Shown here piece after piece: positions 13,980 to 28,252 of a stretch of DNA of 64,000 nt. The position numbers and the translations under genes were made by a program. The notes under the pieces were generated by a model. It saw only the letters and a list, made by a program, of their open reading frames with translations, did no database searches and had not been told where the DNA came from. This stretch comes from Agapetus fuscipes (taxonomy: Eukaryota; Arthropoda; Insecta; Trichoptera; Glossosomatidae). How positions within the stretch are numbered: the stretch's first letter is position 1; each line of letters starts with the position of its first letter. Location: NCBI GenBank assembly GCA_951799405.1, contig OX637343.1:1674001-1738000 (forward strand), given 5' to 3'.

Positions 13980-15566
13980 CTATTTAGTCATAAACTGATC
14001 TATTTTAGTTTGGCGAGTCCTGTTGATGGACCAGAAAAAAGCTTTGTCCCTCAAGTTACGTAGCATCATCTTTTCCGATAAGGACAGGTCATTTTCTTCA
14101 GCCCACTCCAAGCAAGTGTTCAAAGATGATATGGCTTGTGAATGAGTAATTTTCTTGACATTTGAAGCAAAATAATCTTCAGCTAAAGACTCGTCATTCT
14201 CTTGCGTTATTTGGGTTATGATCTCATCATCAGTTATAGGATCTGTGCAATTCTCCTCTTCACTCATGGACAAGAAAGTGGAAATGGTTTCTTCTGTATA
14301 ACCACGATTACGTAAAAGACTGAGCGGGAGATCGTCTTCTACGTCGAAGTCATCATTTTCTTCTGATCTATCTTCTGTTGAATTTATTTTTTCAGGCCAA
14401 AGAGGCTTCCAAGATTTTTCGATAAGAGACGATGATACATGATCCCAACATTGCGCTAGCGAAAAAATGGCGTCTTTAATTGTGACGCTTTTTATAACAT
14501 CATGCAAGGTTAAAGCCTCATCGGCTTCTTGCTGCACGAACATTTGAATCAGGAGTTTCTTTTTGTAATTTATCTTGACATTTTGGATTACGTTTTGATC
14601 CATAGGCTGGATCAAAGGCGTACAATTTGGAGGCATGTACAGTACAGAGAAGTTGCCGTCTTCTGTTGTCAAATCTTCAGCATTTGGATGTCCAGGGGCA
14701 TTGTCTAAGAGTAGCAATGCTTTTTGTGGCAGTCCCATTTTTTTTAAATGGCGTTTGACTTCAGGAACAAAATGGCCTCTAAACCACTCGAGAAAAATAT
14801 CTCTGGTTACCCAAGCACGCCTCTGCCCTTCATAATGCACTGGTAATTTTACAGATCCAAAAGATCTTGGCTTTTTTACCTTCCCCACAACTAGCAATGG
14901 TAATTTGTGATTCCCTGTAGAGTTTGCGCAAGGCATAAAAGTTATTCGCTCTTTAGACACTTTCGACCCAGGAGCGCTAGTTTCAGCAGAAGAGGCTAAA
15001 GTTTTGTCCGGCAGAACCTTCCAAAACAATCCTGATTCGTCGGCATTGTAAATTTGTTCAGGGCAAAGGTTCTTTTCTTTTATCTCGTTTAGGAATTTTT
15101 CTTGGAATGGTTGAACAGCTTCCGTATTGCTAGAGACTTTCTCACCTGACACTTTCAGCTGACGTATGCCATGACGTTTTTTAAAATTATCAAGCCATCC
15201 TCTACTTGCAGAAAAATCCGAACCTGTTAGTTTTTTATGGAAGAATCTCGCTTTTTCCATTACGACCTCACCAGACAATGGAATGTGGCGTCGTCTTTGT
15301 TCTAAAAACCATGTGAACAGTGCTTCTTCTAGCACTGGATTCTCTGGTAATTTTAGAGTTTTTCTGAACCCTGGTCCTTTCTCAGTTTTAGCTATAAAAG
15401 ATCTCAATTTTTGCTCATTTTTCTTGAGGTCTGTAATTGTTGATTTTCCAACGCCATACTTACAAGCAAGAGAAGTTGCCGACACTCCGTCCTTTAAACT
15501 GTCTAGTATGGTGCACTTTTCGGCTATAGTCAAAGTTTTATGTTTGCGTTTTGGTGTTGGAACCAT
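13980..15566 (-). CDS. Tigger-type transposase (CENP-B HTH plus DDE_1), apparently intact
   Basis: 528 codons from M-V-P-T-P-K-R-K. The frame is open 22 codons further upstream, but the basic start KRKHKTLTIAEKC is the family's. Order: psq/CENP-B N-terminal helix-turn-helix (TIAEKCTILDSLKDGVSATS), second HTH (LFTWFLEQRRRHIPLSGEVV, then GWLDNFKKRHGI), DDE_1 catalytic core with D in YNADESGLFWK, D in ALLLLDNAPGHP and D in PLIQPMDQNVIQ, and an acidic C-terminal tail. The length and all three catalytic aspartates are as expected for Tigger transposases. There are no stops. It is centred between good terminal repeats, so it could be a recently active copy. Confidence 0.93.
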   Translation of the reverse strand: MVPTPKRKHKTLTIAEKCTILDSLKDGVSATSLACKYGVGKSTITDLKKNEQKLRSFIAKTEKGPGFRKTLKLPENPVLEEALFTWFLEQRRRHIPLSGEVVMEKARFFHKKLTGSDFSASRGWLDNFKKRHGIRQLKVSGEKVSSNTEAVQPFQEKFLNEIKEKNLCPEQIYNADESGLFWKVLPDKTLASSAETSAPGSKVSKERITFMPCANSTGNHKLPLLVVGKVKKPRSFGSVKLPVHYEGQRRAWVTRDIFLEWFRGHFVPEVKRHLKKMGLPQKALLLLDNAPGHPNAEDLTTEDGNFSVLYMPPNCTPLIQPMDQNVIQNVKINYKKKLLIQMFVQQEADEALTLHDVIKSVTIKDAIFSLAQCWDHVSSSLIEKSWKPLWPEKINSTEDRSEENDDFDVEDDLPLSLLRNRGYTEETISTFLSMSEEENCTDPITDDEIITQITQENDESLAEDYFASNVKKITHSQAISSLNTCLEWAEENDLSLSEKMMLRNLRDKAFFWSINRTRQTKIDQFMTK

Positions 15567-16461
15567 CTTTATAACCTCAAAAAACACGCCGCGCACGAGT
15601 ACAGAGCAGAAAAACGTGGAATGGACGCGCAACGTGGCAGTCGTAACTGCAGACTAATTAATAAACAACACAGCAGCGAGGCGAAGGCGAGGAAGTGGGG
15701 TGGGGTATGCAGTTCGGATTATAGCGACGTTCGGATTAGCCTGAGTACGGATTATCGAGGCTCTACTGTATTGTTGAGGCCGCAAAATGGAGAGAGCACA
15801 CATGGCTTTGAATGTTCGGTGCCCAGTCAGTCCTTTTGATAGCATCGATCCACTTCCGTAAAAAGTACAGATTGTAAGTGCAGATAAAAGTTAGTATATC
15901 TCACTATTGATTTTGTGCTTCTAGAATCTGGAGTTGTCCCCACCCGAATATCCGAACGGGGGACTATTTTACCTCTGGAGAATTTTACTTGAGATTGAGT
16001 CATGTTTTGCTGGTTCTTGGGATGCCACTTGGGCCTTTAACCCTTTGGTGGGCAAATTTTATTCTTTATATATTTTTTAAATTACTTAGCTGAAATTATT
16101 AAGTAGCCATTTGATAATATGAATGTAAAAAAAAAAGTAAAAAAATACTATAGGTAAAAAGATAATCGTGGTGGGAAGCCTAGATCCCACGGAACCATTA
16201 CTAAGACATAATTTTAGCAGAAATAAAAATCAAAATATTTTTTAAACTTATATATCGATAGTGTAGAACAGTACTGGTACATTTCAAAATCGTCCATTTT
16301 GAGGAAATGGCAATTCTATTTTTTTTAAATCATTACTAAGTCTATGTACAAAAAATTAATATGTTTTATATATCAAAATATGTGAGTTTAAGCAAGCTAT
16401 TATAATTATGTTAAAGTGTCATGGCGTTTTTAGTGTTTACTGAGTTATAGCCTAAAATTCT

Positions 16462-16950
16462 AAATGTTCCAGTCTTATTCTAGACCAAATCATTAAAACC
16501 TAGCAGATTAATGGAATATATTGAAATGTTCCAGTCTTATTCTAGACCAAATCATTAAAACCTAGCAGATTATTGGAATATATTGAAATGTTCCAGTCTT
16601 ATTCTAGATCAAATCATTAAAACCTAGCAGATTATTGGAATATATTGAAATGTTCCAGTCTTATTCTAGACCAAATCATTAAAACCTAGCAGATTATTGG
16701 AATATATTGAAATGTTCCAGTCTTATTCTAGATCAAATCATTAAAACCTAGCAGATTATTGGAATATATTGAAATGTTCCAGTCTTATTCTAGATCAAAT
16801 CATTAAAACCTAGCAGATTATTGGAATATATTGAAATGTTCCAGTCTTATTCTAGATCAAATCATTAAAACCTAGCAGATTAATGGAATATATTGAAATG
16901 TTCCAGTCTTATTCTAGATCAAATCATTAAAACATAGCAGATTAAAAGAA
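16462..16950. repeat. 62-base tandem array, 7.9 copies, TIR-like unit
   Basis: Units start at 16462, 16524, 16586, 16648, 16710, 16772, 16834 and 16896 with only a few variable positions (GACC/GATC, TTAATGG/TTATTGG). Each unit opens with AAATGTTCCAGT...TTCTAGAC. This matches the element's right terminal repeat, AAATGTTCCAGT...TTCTACAC, at 20 of 24 positions. Probably an amplified transposase-binding site. Confidence 0.9.
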
Positions 16951-17252
16951 TTTGAAACGATCCATTACTGTTTGTGAAGACTTCAACACCTCTCTTTTTG
17001 CATCGGAGGTTAAAAACGGTTGTCTTAACTTTATATTAAATTAACAAAAAGCCATTTCCAGCTATAAAACAGTATTTTATTCAATTCACAAACAATCGTC
17101 AAAAGTTTTACATTTCCATAAATTGTTATGGTAATAAAATCTTCTTATTCTATGTAGGTACATATTTTTCACATAAAATAACGTTTTAAAATAACTGAAA
17201 TTCAACTTTAAAAAATCATCCTAAAATAGTTATATCTTATTTTTATTCTTAT

Positions 17253-20200
17253 CTAATCAGACGTCTGTAGTCCTTCGTTGTAAGACCAATATACTTTCGG
17301 AATAGCATTCGACTTACAAAGTGCTAAAAGATCTTTTTGCTTTGATGCTGAAATAGTAGGCCTAACCGTAAATTTTTTATTTAGTTCCAAAACTGGCTTG
17401 CTTCTCATTTTCTGACGTACATTTATTTTCTGCATATTTCTGTCCTCGTACGTGTATGAATATTGCAAAAATGTAGGATTTTCAGGTTCCACCGAAAATT
17501 TTCTAACATCGTTCCAAACTATTTTTTCCCCGTCCAGATTATGTGTGAAATTCTTTCCAACCAGTTTACTTAGTCTTTTTAAATGAAGAATGTCGTCAAA
17601 GTTTAGATTGATGACTTGGTATAGATTACCATTCTTCTTAGCACCAAGTACAATTGAATTCCACTGAGCTGGGATATAAATTGACCCATTTTTTAAAATA
17701 CGTTTCTTTTCTTTCTCAATCATCGCATGTACACTGTCACCTTCATTTTGAGTGTGACCCACTACCAAATATTTGTGGGTTATCGATTTAATACCCAGAT
17801 GTTTTATGCAGTAGAGGTATAGAGACATCAGATATTTATTTTTATTTTGTGCAGAACAGTTGTCTGTATAAAATATGACATGTTTTCCCACACAATGTTC
17901 CTTTAGGTATTTAAATATACATGTACCAACTTCGTCGCAACCCTTGTCACCCAAAGATTCATCCCACAAGTAGCAATAACCCTTTTTATTAACAATATCA
18001 TATACCGTGCAATTGTAAACGTTAAGACGACTCTTATAATAGAAAAGAGATTCGTTTCCACAAGGTGTTTGCAGCACTGCTTGCAAATCAAAACATGCAA
18101 CAACTCTATTTTCATTATCTTCTTTTGCCAAGGCAATATCATTTTCTTTTTCGCTTCGACTCAGTTCCTTTTGCTTCTGATGAGTATTGAAGTCTTCTTC
18201 GAGGGACTGTTTTTCTAAGCCGGTAGCATTCTTGTAGGTAGAGCACAAAGAACAAGCATCCTTTTTAGGCTCGTAAAAGGAAATATTGAATTCTGTTCGG
18301 AATATGTTTCTGTACATGCTCTCAGTCACACTAGTTAAATTTTTACTTTTACAATAAGTAATGTAGTGTCTGTATAATATTTTCAAATTAAGGTCACCAT
18401 CGATGTATGTTTTTCTTGTATTTTCCCTACAATAGTGGGATTCTTTCCGTGGATATGAATTTATATGGTTCCTCACGCTTTCTTTAACCAGATCGGGTAC
18501 AATTCTGCCCTTCTTATGATGTTTGCCTCTTTTGTCTCCATCCAAAATTCCTTCTGGAGATACTTTTTTAATGGTGGTGGAAAGAAAGGAGTGTCCTATG
18601 TCCAAAGTATGAGTGAACATTTTAATGGTGGTGGAAAGAAAGGAGTGTCCTATGTCCAAAGTATGAGTGAACATTTTAATGGTGGTGGAAAGAAAGGAGT
18701 GTCCTATGTCCAAAGTATGAGTGAACATTTTAATGGTGGTGGAAAGAAAGGAGTGTCCTATGTCCAAAGTATGAGTGAACATTTGTTTGCATACTCTTAT
18801 TCTTTCTGAATTGACTACAAAATGATATCCATTATTGAGAGAACGTTTGCTAGTTTCTTTGTGAAGTGAATACTTTGGTTTGATTATACTCATACATTTG
18901 TTAACAAAATCACGCTGTCTTTCCAGGTTTCCAATATTCCAAAACTGGTCAAATATTTTTTTTCGGTTTTCCATGGAGATATTTTGTGAACATTTCAACC
19001 GACATGTTTCGTTGCAGCCTGCTCTCATTTTCCTTTCAGGTATAGACTTTCCAGTGACCGTCTTATAACGCTTACCTGTATTACGAAGTTTTTTTTTATT
19101 ATTAGCCTTCCATTGATCAGGTTTTCTAGGTCTCTTTTTGGTTAATGGCAACTCATTATCACTCTCAGAACTAGACGAAATAATAATATTTGGCTTTCTT
19201 TTCAAACCAGGCAGTGTAGAAATTCGAAACTCTTCATTCAGAGCATCCGGCGAAAGTGGTATACTGTTGATCGAATCATCTTCTGCTTGATTAGTCAAAA
19301 TATTGAGGCAATTTCTATTGTTTAGTGCTTCGTTGGAATGTTCAGTATCTGTGAAAAAGATTAAATAATTAATTTAAATAATTGCAGGACTAATCCGCCC
19401 AGAAGTTGTAACTGCAGTAAACAATAATTTTTATTATTTAAGCTTACAACTTTGTCTGAAAATTGTTTTACATACCATTTGAGATATTCCGCATATTATT
19501 TTTCGAAATCGCAGGACTAATCTGACCATAACTCGTAACTTCGATAACGGCATCCACTGTAGTATAATTTGTATTATTGAAAAATTCAGCGTTGCCTGGA
19601 AAGAAAAGAAAAATGTTATGAGTTTAAATATTTTTGACTGATGGTACTTTAGTCGTTATTTTTAAAAACAAAAATTATTTTTAAAAACTAACAGCCGTTT
19701 AACTTCACCTTAATATTTCAAGTATCCAAAAATAGTTAAATAATAGCTTACTAATTGTCCCAGTGTCATTAGTCGAAATAATTTGAATGTTCATTGGAAT
19801 TTCGCACAACAATCCAGGTTCGGAATTCGTTGGATCATTTGCATTTTGTGTCCACAACAACAGTCCAGGTTCTAACTGTGTCCGCTCATCTTCAGAATTT
19901 TTTAGAGCGCTCAGCTGTATTGGAGGCTCCAAATTGATAGGTGAATGTTCCTCCGGCGCCGTAGAAATAATTTGAATGTTCATTGGAGTTTCGCACAACA
20001 ATGGAGGCTCGGAATTCGTTGGATCATTTGCATTTTGTGTCCACAACAACAGTCCAGGTTCTAACTGTGTCCGCTCATCTTCAGAAATTTTTGGAACGCT
20101 CAGCTGTGTTGGAGGCTCCGAATTGATAGGTGAATGTTCCTCCGGCGCCGTAGAAATAATTTGAATGTTCATTGGAGTTTCGCACAACAATGGAGGCTCG

Positions 20201-23200
20201 GAATTCGTTGGATCATTTGCATTTTGTGTCCACAACAACAGTCCAGGTTCTAACTGTGTCCGCTCATCTTCAGAAATTTTTGGAACGCTCAGCTGTGTTG
20301 GAGGCTCCGAATTGATAGGTGAATGTTCCTCCGGCGCCTTAGAAATAATTTGAATGTTCGTTAGAGGAGCTTCGCACAACAATGCAGGCTCGGAATTCGT
20401 CGGATCATTCGTATTTTGTGTCCACAACAACAGTCCAGGTTCTGACTGTGTCCGCCCATCTTCAGAAATTTTTGGAGCGCTCAGCCGTGTTGGAGGGGCC
20501 AGAGTGATTGGTGAATGTTCCGCCGGTGGCATCATACAAAATGAAGCACCTGAAATAATTTTAAAAGTTTCAAGTTCATAGCGTGAATAGTTCACGAGAT
20601 AAGATCCAGTTCCAAACTGACGGACAGACACCTGGCTGATTTTCTTACATGCCAGCATACGGTGCTACGGAATCTTGTTTGAATCGGAATGAATCGGAAT
20701 TTTGTTATTTTTATTTATTTATAAGTGGATTTGTATTTTATTTAGTTTTATTTATTGAGAAAAGAAACACATGTTGACTTCTTTTATTTTTATTCTGGAA
20801 GTAACAATTTTAATTCTTCTTCTTCTATTTACTTACATAGACAATATTACCAACATGCACAAATGTGAGTTACTATTATCAAAATTACATTTTCAACACA
20901 CTCCCTTAACGAGCATATTGCATATATTGCATACATTATGAATTTAGGAATTATTACTAGTTGTTTGACTTCTTTAAATAATACATTTTGAAATAAACAT
21001 TTGATATCACTCCCTGAAAGTAGATATACAAAACATTATTCAAAAAAACAGTATCATGACTTATTATATTAACATTTATACATTAGCTTGTCTCTTATAG
21101 AAGAAAAAATTGGGTTATTCAGAGGTTTAGTAAGTATATCTGCCAGCTGTTGTTTTGATTCACACCATTTTATATTGAACCAGCCTTTGCTCAGTTCATC
21201 ACAGATGAAATGATATTTTACATCAATGTATTTACTTTTCCTGGTTGTTTGACCAGATTTAATCATTTTAAGTGTACTTTGATTATCAATGTATAGTGTC
21301 ATTCTCACATTTTTCTTCAGTAGTTCTTCAATGAAATTTTTAATAAACTTCATTTCTTGACAACAAGTGGCTGCCGATACGTACTCTGATTCTGTTGTGG
21401 ACAGTGATACACCAGTTTGTTTTCTTGAGTTCCAAGATATAGGTCCACCACCAAACAGTATAATGTATCCTGAAGTACTCTTTCTGTTTTCTTCATCATT
21501 TGCAAAGTCAGCATCACAGTATGCTTCTAGATGAATATCTTGTTCTTTTGAAACAGAATATTGTATTCCTGTATCTAAAGTACCTCTTAAATATCTTAAA
21601 ATACGTTTAACGTTGATGATATCTTGATTGGTTGGATTATTTAGATATTTACTTGCCTGATTCACGGCATATGTGACATCTATTCTTGTCTTTGTGCTTA
21701 AATAGAGCAAGCTTCCCACAGCTTCTCTATATGGATAATTTATTATTCCATTATTTTCTTGTCTACCTTTCAATTTTGTCATGGGAGTTGTCTGTGGTTT
21801 ACAGTTTTCATTCAAAAATTTCTTCACAACTTTTGCAGCATATTCTGATTGATTGACATTAATTCCTTCATCACTTATTCTTATTTTTAAACCGAGATAG
21901 GTTTCTGGTTTTTCATTTACAGTTATTTCAAAACTTTCTTTCAGACTTTTTATCAAATAGTTTATGTCTTCATCATTATTGCCAATTATCAAACCATCGT
22001 CTACATGTATGGCTAAATACAGTTGTTTTTCAGATCCATTCAATTTGAAAACTGATTGATCAGTTTTGAGTTGAATGAGATTTTCTTTCTTTAGAAAATT
22101 TGTTAATCTTTTATTCCACTGATGAGGTGCCTGTACCAGTCCATAAAGAGCTTTCTTTAGAAAACATACTTTACCTGGTACATTGTATCCTTCTGGAACT
22201 TTCATAAATATTTCTTCTTGTAAGTCTCCGTTCAAGAAAGCAGTTTTTACATCAAATGTCTTGATTATTAGATCTTGTTGTGCTGCAAGTGCCAACAGTA
22301 TACGCAATGAAGTAGTTTGCACAACTGAGCTGTATATATCTTGAAAATCTAGATTATCTTTTTTCTGTTGACATCCTCGTGCCACTAATCTTGCTTTCTT
22401 TGTTCCATCAGATTTTTCCTTGAATATCCATTTTGATGTGATCGTTTCTTTACCTCTTGCATGTTTTTCATCCACTAACATCCAAGTATTATTTTTCTCA
22501 AGAGAGAGTTTTTCTTCATCAATAGCTTTTATCCATTCTTCTTTTTCTGCCGATTTGATGCAGTCTTCATAGGTGTTAGGAATGTCTTCTTCCGTTAGCA
22601 TAGCATAGTCTTGAAATCTATTTGGTAGTCTTATTTGTCGTTGAGGTCTGACTTGGTGTGCTTCCTCATTCTCATCATCATTTATATTTTCTTCTTCTTC
22701 GTTAATGTTTTCTTCTTGTACATCTTCTTGTTCATCATCGCTTTGATTTTCTTTATTTTCTTGTTCTCCATTGATTGACAGCATAACTGTTTCAGGATCT
22801 TCTTCTTTTGGAAATTGGTTTGTGAATCTTACATCTCTTGAAATGTAGACTCTCTTTGTTATAGGATCCATGATTCTGTATCCATTCATGGCATATCCCA
22901 CGAGAATACCTTTCTTGGCTCTATCTTCTAATTTCTTCAGTCTTCCTAGATTCTTGGTAAACACTTCGGTACCAAAAATCTCCAGTCTATTTAAATCTGG
23001 TTTTTGTCGATACCAGATCTGTGCCGGTGTTACCTCAACAGCGTGTGTTGGGCTTCTATTAGTGAGATAGGTAGCAGTTTCTGTAGCATATCCCCACATT
23101 GTATTGTTTAGTCCTGATTCTTTAAGCATTGCTCTCACCTTATTCATGATAGTGAGATTCATTCTTTCTGCTTTACCGTTCAGCTGAAGAGTATCTTCTA

Positions 23201-25894
23201 TGGTATAATCAATGACTATTCCTTTATTTTTGCACCACTTTTTGAAGCTAGTGCTTCTATATTCTCCTCCTCTGTCACATCTTATTTTTGACACTTTAAG
23301 GTTAAAATGTGCTTCAGCTTCAGCTATATGGTCCTTAAGATATTCTTCTGTTTCATCTTTTGTCTTAAGTAGGTAAACTTTCAGGAAATGGGAAAAATCA
23401 TCCAGACATGTAAGTATATAGTTTTCACCATTTTCTGTTTCAGGGCTTATTTTTCCACATAGATCTGTGTGGATTATTTCAAGTGGCCTAGTCGCCCTTT
23501 TCCTGACAGAATCAAATGGGCTTCTTACCAGTTTTTCAATTGCACAAGGTTCGCAAATTTGCATCACATTTGTTTTCTTTAAAATATCTGGTACACCCTC
23601 GCACAAATTGGCGAGTTTTTTCATGTCATTGAAGTTAAGGTGTCCCATCTTCTTATGCCATTTCTTTATTACATCTTCTTGATTAACAGTGAGTAGGACT
23701 TCTTCTTCAAAGCTATTTTCATCTGTTTGTTTTAGGTCAACAAGGTAGAGACCGGTGTCAGTCTTTTTTCCTTCAAGTATTATTTCACCTTTTATTTCAG
23801 TTTCACAGTCTTTCATAATTCTTACTTTTTCGTTGTCAAAAATAACAACACCACCTTTGCTGGTTGCTTGTCCAACTGAGAATAGATTTCTGGTCAATGT
23901 CGGGACGTAAACGACATCATTCAGAATCACATTGTCCGATTCAACGGATCCTTGCTGATTTGCCTTGAGGTTTTCACCCTTTTTTTCAACTTTGATATTT
24001 ATTTCTTCAATTCTTTTGGTATTCTTTAAAATTTTCTTTTCATAAGTCATGTGTCCTGTGCATGCACTATCCACTGCAAATATTGTGTCAGCTTCTTGTT
24101 GATTCTTTACAGATAAATGTGTTTCCACAAGAAAAGCAGTTTTTCCTCCATTTCTATCTCTGTTTCTGAAGAAACATTTTTCACTGGCATGATTGTTTTT
24201 CTTGCAGTGAATGCACAGATCTTTGCCAGGTATTGGCTTAAAGAAACATTCATTTTCTTGGTGGTTTTCTCTTTTACAGAACTCACAAATTTTCTTTTTG
24301 CCTTTTATATAATTGATCTTTGACATTTTATTATCTTTATAATTTTTCTTAAAAGTTGTTTTAAAAGCTGCTTTTTCTTCGTGTATTTTTTCTTTTCCTA
24401 GCTTCTCCTCTTCTTTTGCTAGTCTGGCAATTAGATTTTCCATGTTTCTTTCTTTTTCTGCTGTCGAGTCCCATGCTGCTTCAAAATATTGGTATTTTGG
24501 TGGAAGAATTGTCATTATTTTACTGATAACCATTACATCACTTATTTTACTTGTCTCTCCGTCCATTTTGTTAAGTTGGTAGACCATGTTCTGTATGTTA
24601 CTTATATTGTTAATGACATCTTTGCTTTTGTCAAAGTTGAAATTATAAAAATCTTGAAGTAAGGACTGTACTCTTTGTATTGTGTCTTTTTTAAAAATGG
24701 TTTCCAGCTTTTTATACATTTCATTTCATTTCATTTTTATTCCTTAACTTATAGGTTGGTATGAGGCTGACCACCCATACTGTAAAAAATGGTTCACTTT
24801 GCCAATGTTACCCCTGTTTCAGGGAAGGTCGGCAAAAGTTGTGGGGCTTATGTTCATTTGAGGTTTGGATTTTATTTGTAAGTACACATTCAGCATTTGT
24901 AAGCGCGAACTACACTTGTTGGTTTGTGGGCTTACATCTGAGAGCTTTAAATGAATATATCCTTGCAACTTAGATTATATTATATTATTATATTATATAT
25001 ATATATATTATTATTATATATTATTATTATATTATTATATTATATATTATATATATTATATTATTTGAAGTTTCACAATTCACCAAGTGCACTTTAATTT
25101 TTTTGTCCAAGGTTTTCATAATTAGAAATTTTGCTTTGTAATCTTTGACGATCCATTTCTTTACTTCATCAGGCTTGTTATCTTCTGGTTTTATTTCGTT
25201 TCCTTCTACAATATCCAAGAGACCTTTAGCTCCAAACATTATTTTTATCTCGTAATTCCATATCTGGTAAGTAGAGCTATCCCTAAGGATTTGAATTCCA
25301 CTTAGTTCTTCGTTTTCTTCATTGAGAGCCATGTTTGCAGACTCGCACCACGCTTCCACGAAACACGCTTCAACTGTCAACTGTCAACAACGTCGAAGTT
25401 TTGGCCAATTTGTGTGATCGTACTGGGCCCATTACCTTTTGTTATTTTTATTTATTTATAAGTGGATTTGTATTTTATTTAGTTTTATTTATTGAGAAAA
25501 GAAACACATGTTGACTTCTTTTATTTTTATTCCGGAAGTAACAATTTTAATTCTTCTTCTTCTATTTACTTTCATAGACAATATTACCAACATGCACATA
25601 TGTGAGTTACTATTATCAAAATTACATTTTCAACACTAAACATTATCAATATAACTTAATACTTATGTTGAATGGATTTGCACTATAAATCTTCCTAATA
25701 TTGCACAATAATCGTACAAAGAAAACATCGTTGATCGATACAATCGATCAATACAAAAAAATTTGGTTACGATAAATACCTATGTAATTGAGGTTATGTG
25801 AGTGAAACTTACCCTTCTTATAATCACTTGGATAATCCATCTTGCCTTGAGCCATCTCCACCATAACCTCCGTTCTCGTCTTCGATCTTCTCAT
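17253..25894 (-). CDS. Putative transposase, DUF7869-type, four exons, uninterrupted
   Basis: Exons 25894-25813, 20549-19752, 19595-19476 and 19348-17253 (82+798+120+2096 bases) use gtaagt, gtaagc and gtatgt donors and AG acceptors, all in phase 1. Together they give 1031 residues with no stop. An in-frame TAA precedes the ATG. Order: acidic linker with four 63-residue repeats (exon 2); basic segment PDQWKANNKKKLRNTGKRYK; a Cys cluster (C-N-E-T-C-R-L-K-C); an HTH-like segment present as four 18-residue copies; CSLC; then the core FDLQAVLQTP, YCYLWDE, FYTDNCSAQNKN and VGHTQNEGDSVHAMIEKEKK, whose D, D and E are spaced like an RNase H-fold transposase. The C-terminus ends IPKVYWSYNEGLQ. Intron 1 holds the Copia. 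The family is common in arthropod genomes; its biochemistry is not known to me. Confidence 0.8.
18571..18786 (-). repeat. 54-base coding tandem repeat, four copies
   Basis: Starts at 18571, 18625, 18679 and 18733 on the plus strand. The copies look identical by eye. Each encodes M-F-T-H-T-L-D-I-G-H-S-F-L-S-T-T-I-K. Relatives I know of have one such segment, so three extra copies were added in frame. Confidence 0.95.
19770..20545 (-). repeat. 189-base coding tandem repeat, four copies (exon 2)
   Basis: Period 189 bases (63 codons), with plus-strand marks at 19787, 19976, 20165 and 20354. Each copy reads AEEHSPIN/PEEHSPIN-like, then LSxPKxSEDxRTQ, EPGLLLWTQN, NDPTNSEP and MNIQIIS. The two middle copies are nearly identical and the outer two have diverged. 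Low-complexity acidic linker; function unknown. Confidence 0.9.
21069..25332 (-). CDS. Copia Gag-Pol polyprotein, split by an RTE-tail repeat
   Basis: The Gag start (25332, MALNEENEELSGIQILRDSS) runs to about 25062. It resumes at 24719 (YKKLETIFKKDTIQ) and then stays open for 1216 codons. Domains in order: Gag UBN2; two CX2CX4HX4C knuckles (CEFCKRENHQENEC, CIHCKKNNHASEKC); protease FAVDSACTGHM; integrase HHCC (WHKKMGHLN, CEPCAIEK) and core (HTDLCGK, CDRGGEY, LNGKAERMN); RT (DVKTAFLNGDLQEEI, YGLVQAPHQWN, IHVDDGLIIGN); RNase H (YCDADFANDEENRKSTSGY, TTESEYVSA, ADILTKPL). Everything catalytic is intact. Only the nested repeat between Gag residues 90 and 91 would block translation. Confidence 0.92.
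24722..25065 (+). repeat. RTE-tail repeat, copy 2, nested in Copia gag
   Basis: ATTCCTTAACTTATAGGTTGG through TTGCAACTTAGATTATA, followed by a 90-base ATTAT/ATAT run. It splits Copia Gag at an ETSNN/YKKLE junction. The uninterrupted reading on either side dates this insertion after the Copia arrived. Confidence 0.85.
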
Positions 25895-26522
25895 AGCTGA
25901 TGTTTAGCAATTCTACAAAAATCCACGACATTCACAAAAATCTATCACCATTCACGAGAATAACCTCAAAGCTCATGTCCAGTTTAGAGATGCTTACTTT
26001 ATAATCAACCACACAAACAACAATTCCTAATTTTAGTAAAGTCTTATCTCTTTCTAAATCAATATTGAAAGACAGAGAGGTGTCTTCCATTGAGCACAGG
26101 TGTCAGCAATAAAGTGGCTTTTGTTTAGACTGACAAGTACCGAGAAAAAACGTGTGACCTTGCCTGTGGCTCAGTTCAGTACCAGTACATTTCGAAATAT
26201 TCCAATTCATCTTTTAAAGTTGAATGTTGTAGGGGAACATTTCTGAATGTTCCAATACAGTAATATTTTTATGTTAGCAATGCATTCAGTTACTTATCCG
26301 AACAAGCAAATTAGAGGATGTTGGAGTGGCGACTTGACTTGTCCCGATACTGTTTTAGATGAAGAAAAATATAACGAAAAATTTGGCATTCATAACTCAA
26401 AACCGCCTTTTTTTTAAATGTTCCAGTACTGTTCTACACCTACGATATTATGGATAAAAAAATATGGAAAATACACAATTATAGTAGGTTAACATTAAAG
26501 AAACAAAAAGGACAAAATATTT

Positions 26523-28252
26523 TTACATTTTTCCATGAAAAATTTTGAAACATGGATCCACGCAAAGTGGCACCTCGCACCCGCTGCAAATATATTTGGT
26601 ACGCTTTTCGATAGCTTTGGTACTGCAGCACCTGCACCGTCTGTAAGTGCCACCAAGTGTTGGGAGATGCTGCCCAACCCCTGTGAGACGGATTTCTTCC
26701 GGGACTGATCCTCTTTTTTCCAAAAAATGTACAGGACGTCCTCTTCTTTTTCTTGTGCAATAATCACCAATCAGCTGTCGTGCTAGTGATAATCGAAACT
26801 GCAATTGAGTTTTTGATGTTTTGGTTGGTAGCAGCTTGCATCCAACAATAAAAGAATTGACGATTGCCATATCGATCATGCTGTACATTATCCTGTCACC
26901 GACTTCCTTCCCACTTCGTACCGTTCCCTTAGCTGATCGAATCTGTCCACCCCGCCCATCACTCGATTATATTCCGAAACAACTAGAGGGCAAGAAACAG
27001 CCTTTTTTTCACCTTTTTTATCCTTTCGCTGCACAAACGTTGTCTCCAGGTGATTTGAAACGGTCGATAAAAAATGGACAGCTTTGTTATCCATCCATCG
27101 AACGGCAAGAATAATTGAGTTCCCGTTTTGAAATTGGAACTCACCTCGATTTAGTTTCTCTGTATTTGAGGTGAAAATTTGGGGCAAATTCTTTTTGTTC
27201 ACTCTCACCATTCTCATTGCATCTATACCTTTAGATTTTAGATAAAACAGTAATTTAGTGCTACTAAAAAAATTATCAAAAGTGAGTACATAATTTTGAA
27301 ATTCAAAGCCCTTACTTAGATCAACAACTACTTTTTCCCCCAAGCCAAAGGATTTTGAATAATTTGAACCCTTTCCTGTATATATATCAAATTTTAAAAC
27401 AAAACCATTTGTTGAATCAGCCAAACACCATGCTTTATAACCTCTCTTCACAGGTTTCATGGGAATGTATTGTTTCAAAGAAGATCGGCCTTTGAACTTT
27501 ATCATTGACTCATCAATAGATAAAAATGAGGAAGGGCTCATCATTGCTTGAAAATTAGTATTTAGTTAGTCCATCACTCGACGTACTTTGTGCAATTTAT
27601 CATAATTTGGGTCTGATTTTTCTTTGTTTTTTGTATTGTCATTCATATGAATGGTCTCCACTATTTTTTTTAATCGCTTAGCAGTGATTATTTTATTTAT
27701 CGCTGGTACTCCAAGAATAGGGTCAGAGCTCCAATAGTTTTTCAAATGGGGTAGCTGATGAATCCCCATTATTATTAAAATTCCAAAAAAGGCCCGAATT
27801 TCGTCAACATTGACGTCCATCCAATTATTTTTCGACTCTTGTTTGGCGTATTTGTTTGTTTCTTCCACTATAATTTCAAATATATTTTCAAAAGATTTAT
27901 CGAAAATATCGATTTCTTTGGGGTAAATGAAATCCAATTTGGAATTTCCAAACTCTTTTCTTTGGTCGTCAGGTTTTTGAAAATCTTCACAGTTCGATGT
28001 CCATTGAACTTGGGGTGTGACAAATTCTATAATATCCGGTGGTAATATCTCAATAAAATCTTCTGATTCATTTACATAGTTTTCCGTTTGAGGAAAGTGT
28101 TGAAAATCAATATTAGTATTGTCCAGTTCATCCAATTCTTCACGAGCATCTTCGTCGCACTCAGCATCTGAATATTCTTCGTCTGAAGGCAAAGAATGGA
28201 AATATTCTAATATTTCTTCCATATCCTCGAGCACATTCCATTTTTTAGCCAT
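26523..28252 (-). pseudogene. piggyBac transposase, nearly complete, with one stop and one frameshift
   Basis: Acidic N-terminus (AKKWNVLEDMEEILEYFHSL), then IRAFFGILIIMGIHQLPHLK, then after an in-frame TAA (27564-27566) the catalytic domain with D in SIDESMIKFKGRS, D in VLTFDNFFSSTK and the pair in MGGVDRFDQLRERY. A frameshift at about 26890 leads to LARQLIGDYCTRKRRGRP and the C-terminal Cys-rich module RRCRCCSTKAIEKRTKYIC..C. All four catalytic aspartates survive. About 575 residues, normal for the family. Belongs to the TTAA-ended element 16037-31207. Confidence 0.88.

Follow-up and report, generated by a model that had tools for sequence, protein, structure and literature searches.

A spliced DUF7869 gene of Agapetus fuscipes very probably encodes the transposase of the DNA transposon in which it lies

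Is a spliced gene whose product carries the Pfam domain DUF7869 a gene of its host, or the transposase of a mobile element around it? The question is raised by a stretch of 64,000 nucleotides of the Agapetus fuscipes genome (hereafter the window; contig OX637343.1, positions 1,674,001 to 1,738,000 of the forward strand; contig C11 of the 618-Mb genome), in which such a gene lies between inverted repeats. We regard it as near certain that the element is a mobile DNA transposon. Its inverted ends, its 4-bp duplication, the existence of empty sites, related families of the same design and the predicted fold of the protein together make DUF7869 very probably the DDD/E transposase of this transposon (probability about 0.92), which is the function that an initial annotation of the window had proposed.

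The element and its borders are as follows.
16256-26444, minus strand: DUF7869 transposon including a nested copia retrotransposon, 10,189 bp, whose ends occur in the genome as 5 pairs
16252-16255, no strand: target duplication ATAT, left copy; the joined flanks with a single ATAT occur at 10 other places over 304/304 bases
26445-26448, no strand: target duplication ATAT, right copy
16256-16289, plus strand: left terminal inverted repeat, beginning CGATAGTGTAGAACAGTACTGG, with its 24-base core at 16261-16284
26411-26444, minus strand: right terminal inverted repeat, beginning CGTAGGTGTAGAACAGTACTGG as read on the minus strand, with its 24-base core at 26416-26439

The boundaries given in the initial annotation fall exactly at the inner edges of the two ATAT copies, and the inverted 24-base cores are, as it had read them, identical at 23 of 24 positions. 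The end pattern (up to 3 mismatches) matched twice in the window, compared with 0 matches in 100 shuffles. When the flanking ATAT is included, the inverted match of the ends spans 38 nt at 87%.

We then joined both flanks with one ATAT and searched the genome with this empty-site query. Among the 22 rows obtained, 10 were places matching over 304/304 bases at 98-99%, 6 matched over 302 bases at 81-87%, 4 were partial and the remaining 2 were the two flanks of the window itself. The junction was read in two of the 10 places, and both carried TTATATATTATGG with zero extra bases. Since empty sites with a single ATAT exist, the DUF7869 element was inserted into a repeated sequence, which we take to be piggyBac, and added four bases on insertion. 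An insertion site in piggyBac had been suggested before, and it agrees with what surrounds the element: at 16037 lies an end consisting of TTAA directly followed by CCCTTTGG, which we read as a piggyBac end, and an open reading frame (ORF) at 26888-27565 carries DDE_Tnp_1_7, the piggyBac-type domain of Pfam.

The 24-base ends are also found elsewhere. The pattern of this family, called A here, gave 13 matches in the genome (8 forward, 5 reverse) and one match in a control with the pattern read backwards. Five end pairs, with 10,179 (window), 5372, 4564, 4635 and 1330 bp between the 24-base blocks, and three single ends could be distinguished, with ATAT on both sides in four of the five pairs. 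The flanks of the insertions differ from each other and an empty site exists, so the ends do not lie within a larger repeat. Of the single ends, those on C46 and C143 share an identical 40-base flank and therefore probably represent one duplicated locus.

As ATAT is palindromic and nearly constant, family A alone was undecisive on whether these four bases are duplicated target DNA or the outermost part of the inverted end. A genome search with the catalytic half of the protein gave 97 matches (612 candidates, 95 scored), and three groups besides family A were followed, B, C and D, most of whose matches are 43-45% identical to A. The four families have a common design: their ends begin with CG, and their 4-bp duplication is nearly always ANNT. 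Family C comprises 11 end pairs ~3.27 kb apart, of which 10 have identical duplications (ATAT 6, ATGT 3, ACAT 1); eight of the nine other copies match the reference at 99.1-100%, the ninth at 93-97%. The 25 pairs of family B (8 of them short copies, 248-256 bp long, the other 17 measuring 3.8-9.7 kb) have identical duplications in 24 cases, including ATGT, AAAT and AGAT. In family D, among the matches listed, the duplication was identical for 31/31 left ends with a mate and non-palindromic for 17 of them (ATAT 13, ATGT 5, AAAT 5, ATTT 3, ACAT 2, ACTT 1, AATT 1, AGGT 1); independent draws at the same frequencies would be expected to match at a rate of 24%. Because the related families carry identical non-palindromic duplications, ATAT is duplicated target DNA and not the end itself, and its membership of the inverted end is ruled out by families B, C and D. 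The candidate duplication of the initial annotation is thereby confirmed, together with the evidence of the empty sites.

Reading towards the element, one finds a pyrimidine immediately before the duplication at 25/26 ends in family B, 20/22 in C and 8/12 in A. The family D counts rest on 63 (31 left, 32 right) of the 100 listed ends out of 1737, the other 37 (9 at 2 mismatches, 28 at 3) having been excluded as diverged; for one left end on C26 with two possible mates (ATAT, ACTT), the matching mate was counted. Unmated ends amounted to 9/59 in family B and 4/26 in family C. The pattern of family C was written without duplication letters; those of B and D contained ATAT and allowed up to 3 mismatches in all, so that duplications unlike ATAT are under-counted in these two families.

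The gene itself is read from the minus strand.
25813-25894, minus strand: exon 1
19752-20549, minus strand: exon 2, holding an in-frame 189-bp tandem repeat
19476-19595, minus strand: exon 3
17253-19348, minus strand: exon 4, with an N-terminal CX3CX3C motif and the DUF7869 catalytic domain
17604-18191, minus strand: catalytic RNase H-like domain (predicted fold), with D429, D504 and D546/E553 in exon-4 ORF numbering

Predicted splicing, with GT-AG borders in 3/3 introns, joins the four exons into 3096 nt and 1031 codons with a single terminal stop, in accordance with the gene model first put forward. The protein scores 36.6 bits against PF25273 (DUF7869), for which the gathering cut-off is 26, and the proteins of families C and B score 45.8 and 32.4 bits. 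This genome gave at least 150 matches over this cut-off, 150 of its 299 candidates having been scored, and none of 14 control genomes gave any.

The protein has the D, D and E/D blocks that the initial annotation had pointed out, and these hardly vary when it is aligned with 120 homologues. Counting only homologues of at least 300 aa in two lineages (n=120 and n=108), we found the conserved acids to be D429, D504, D546 and E553. Structure prediction gives the protein an RNase H-like fold. A search of BFVD with the short model, which led no further, gave 9 matches at E ≤ 0.001 (4 MutS-like, 1 viroplasmin, 1 RNase H and 3 unnamed); absence of a family from such structural listings does not exclude it. 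Neither NCBIfam nor the PDB sequences yielded a match at E values up to 1; in PHROGs the window protein had two matches (E 0.05-0.08) to families whose function is given as not assigned, and the family C protein had none. A species is named for 32 of the 120 listed homologues, all 32 of them from insects, and these proteins are called uncharacterized, hypothetical or unnamed product, or bear a bare domain name. E544, which lies in the third block of the initial annotation, was also considered as a catalytic residue and was rejected, not being among the positions at least 80% conserved in both lineages.

A second DUF7869 lineage with a different third motif occurs in this genome (L085, G000:C16:219500-221200); over about half of L085 it is 89-93% identical to two Mythimna loreyi proteins. 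A protein of Acanthoscelides obtectus (P0160), 51% identical to this second lineage over 60%, carries the Pfam domains DUF4371 and MADF and no DUF7869; it is possibly a fusion or a gene-model error.

Several observations weigh against DUF7869 as the transposase of a cut-and-paste element. The third catalytic acid has two candidates, D546 or E553, and at K477, T503 and A508 the window protein has a residue other than the common one. A Foldseek search of the longer model against PDB gave no match at E ≤ 0.001. One end pair in each of three families has non-matching duplications: ATAT/AATA in the 1330-bp family A copy on C30, AATT/ATAT in family B and AATT/TATT in family C. Moreover, transposition and excision are inferred.

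On the preferred reading, the spliced gene would produce a DDD/E transposase with DUF7869 as its catalytic domain. The enzyme would recognise the inverted ends starting with CG, possibly along with the subterminal repeats described below, excise the element and join it to the target with a 4-base stagger at ANNT, preferably ATAT, which would yield the 4-bp duplication. Catalysis would presumably rely on D429, D504 and D546 (or E553), and the movement would be of the cut-and-paste kind.

To which known transposons might such an element belong? Terminal inverted repeats, a 4-bp duplication of fixed length and a predicted RNase H-like fold with conserved acids are all found here, as in DDE/D cut-and-paste transposons. 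The retroviral integrase catalytic cores in PDB are 7-15% identical to the protein among the matches listed, and their DNA ends and life cycle differ. Mariner-type transposons make a 2-bp TA duplication, so that the 4-bp duplication here sets the element apart from those of Mos1 and Metnase. The enzymes of Sola elements go by the name of DDD transposases, and Hydra is among the organisms with Sola2. According to PMC3627910, Sola2 elements have 4-bp AT-rich duplications (AWWT, or ATAT, AAAT and ATTT), terminal inverted repeats of 12-13 or 21 bp and one large transposase (888 aa in one case). The DUF7869 element resembles them in its inverted repeats, its single large protein and its AT-rich duplication, ATAT being a form of AWWT; it differs in its longer inverted ends (24-base core) and, in the related families, in the wider ANNT range. 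PiggyBac and Kolobok elements also combine 4-bp duplications with DDE/D transposases, but both are described as specific for TTAA (PMC7351741, PMC9587614), unlike the ATAT found here and the ANNT of the related families.

We therefore consider the transposon probably to be of Sola2 type, belonging to that group or standing next to it, an affinity that the initial annotation had raised and that lies in the likeness of the target duplication. The available text of PMC3627910 gives no Sola2 end sequence, and neither protein nor end sequence was found in that of PMC5199201, PMC11071193, PMC9297572, PMC10294476, PMC4455052, PMC9783078, PMC12477816, PMC5753468 or PMC9587614. The rival that survives best, which we hold to be possible and distinctly the less likely of the two, is that DUF7869 transposons form a separate DDE superfamily and share 4-bp AT-rich duplications with Sola2 by chance. 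The literature searched contained no mention of DUF7869 or PF25273, and hence no published link of either to Sola, and ATGT, ACAT, AGAT, ACTT and AGGT fall outside the published AWWT. Against this, ATAT, AAAT, ATTT and AATT are present and fit AWWT, as does the length of 4 bp, and the published duplications come from three amoebozoan families (AWWT) and three more (ATAT, AAAT, ATTT), so that the wider ANNT may reflect nothing but better sampling.

It is very improbable that the DUF7869 gene is a passenger moved by the transposase of another superfamily. Passenger genes of transposons are known, such as Fanzor in Sola2 elements (PMC3627910), and the short non-coding copies show that ends alone could be moved by an enzyme made elsewhere; yet four families whose DUF7869 proteins are only ~45% alike each retain the gene between matched ends, the protein has a predicted RNase H-like fold with conserved acids, and in the one family C copy scanned there is no other ORF of at least 300 aa. 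A host gene or domesticated transposase merely lying between repeats, for which the frame open across four exons might speak, is ruled out by the empty sites at 10 places, and the same gene and ends recur at several places while the related families have many near-identical copies.

The preferred reading of DUF7869 as transposase does not make the window copy a pristine one. Its initial description as intact is correct for the reading frame and not for the copy, which has been enlarged by the following features.
18566-18784, minus strand: in-frame 54-bp tandem repeat of 4 units; 1 or 2 units in other copies holding that part
16462-16944, no strand: subterminal array of 7.8 units of 62 bp, 98% alike, in whose units the left end recurs in inverted, degenerate form
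20700-25636, minus strand: copia retrotransposon in intron 1, foreign to the transposon proper, with long terminal repeats at 20700-20899 and 25437-25636

All four exons are present in five other copies (C3, C23, C24, C46 and C143), and in each the donor GT of exon 2 stands 3 bases before its position in the window copy. Exon lengths in C3, C23, C46 and C143 differ from those of the window by multiples of three, which is not so for exon 2 of C24. Under the same splicing, C3 is free of internal stops and reads 913 codons, and C23, C24, C46 and C143 contain such stops. The window copy has 4 of the 54-bp units, compared with one each in C3, C23 and C24 and two each in C46 and C143; a marker of the 189-bp repeat matches it 4 times, compared with 3 in each of the five. 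As its tandem units exceed those of the other copies, the 1031 codons are inflated. Given these expansions and the copia inside intron 1, the transposon would be better defined from a copy other than this one, which had been put forward for the purpose.

In the subterminal array, the inverted left-end copy was found in 7 units among the pairs listed, at 78-80% over 33-38 nt. Counts of the motif are 8 for the window copy, 3 each for C3, C23, C30, C46 and C143, 1 for C24 and 10 for the C3:4704630 locus. Such units may bind the transposase. Inside one family B copy (L036), a 125-bp stretch is repeated about 4 times, similar to the 54-, 62- and 189-bp duplications of the window, and these tandem duplications could be relics of slipped repair after excision.

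The retroelement in intron 1 is, in our reading of its translated ORF, a copia element. Its long terminal repeats agree at 98.5% over 200 bp, its ORF has the orientation of the DUF7869 gene, and it falls between the aligned pieces when the window element is compared with other copies. Within it, at about 24720-25065, lies a stretch with an AT-rich repeat resembling the end of another retroelement.

The insertions at 16037-28252 are thus nested, with copia in the DUF7869 element and the latter in piggyBac. The piggyBac transposase ORFs 26888-27565 and 27566-28252 are in one frame with a stop between them; the other end of this piggyBac was looked for and not found. To the left, at 13980-15653 on the minus strand, an open 557-aa ORF with CENP-B_N, HTH_Tnp_Tc5 and DDE_1 represents a pogo/Tc5-like transposase.

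Family D-like ends, ATATCGCACGTTTAATAATAAAGAG with up to 3 mismatches, number 868 forward and 869 reverse in the genome, while the backward control gave 0 and 0. The 28 listed ends that have 3 mismatches include four pairs with a spacing of 255 bp, so that many of the 1737 ends may belong to short non-coding copies. Two long family D end pairs with matching duplications, C2:12624550-12642837 (18.3 kb, ACAT) and C3:25951633-25960339 (8.7 kb, ATTT), hold two DUF7869 matches each and for this reason may be composite elements or mutual insertions.

Tentatively, DUF7869 might mark an undescribed superfamily or a major branch of Sola, with CG-starting ends, near-strict ANNT duplications (preceded by a pyrimidine in B and C) and end-like motifs in subterminal arrays, and it might be young and numerous here and drive many short non-coding copies. 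If the domain is recognised as a transposase, annotators could assign the genes that carry it to transposons instead of to the host. With several families in which copies are nearly identical and both ends and target sites are defined, the enzyme lends itself to direct testing, and it may eventually serve as an insertion tool with an ANNT target.

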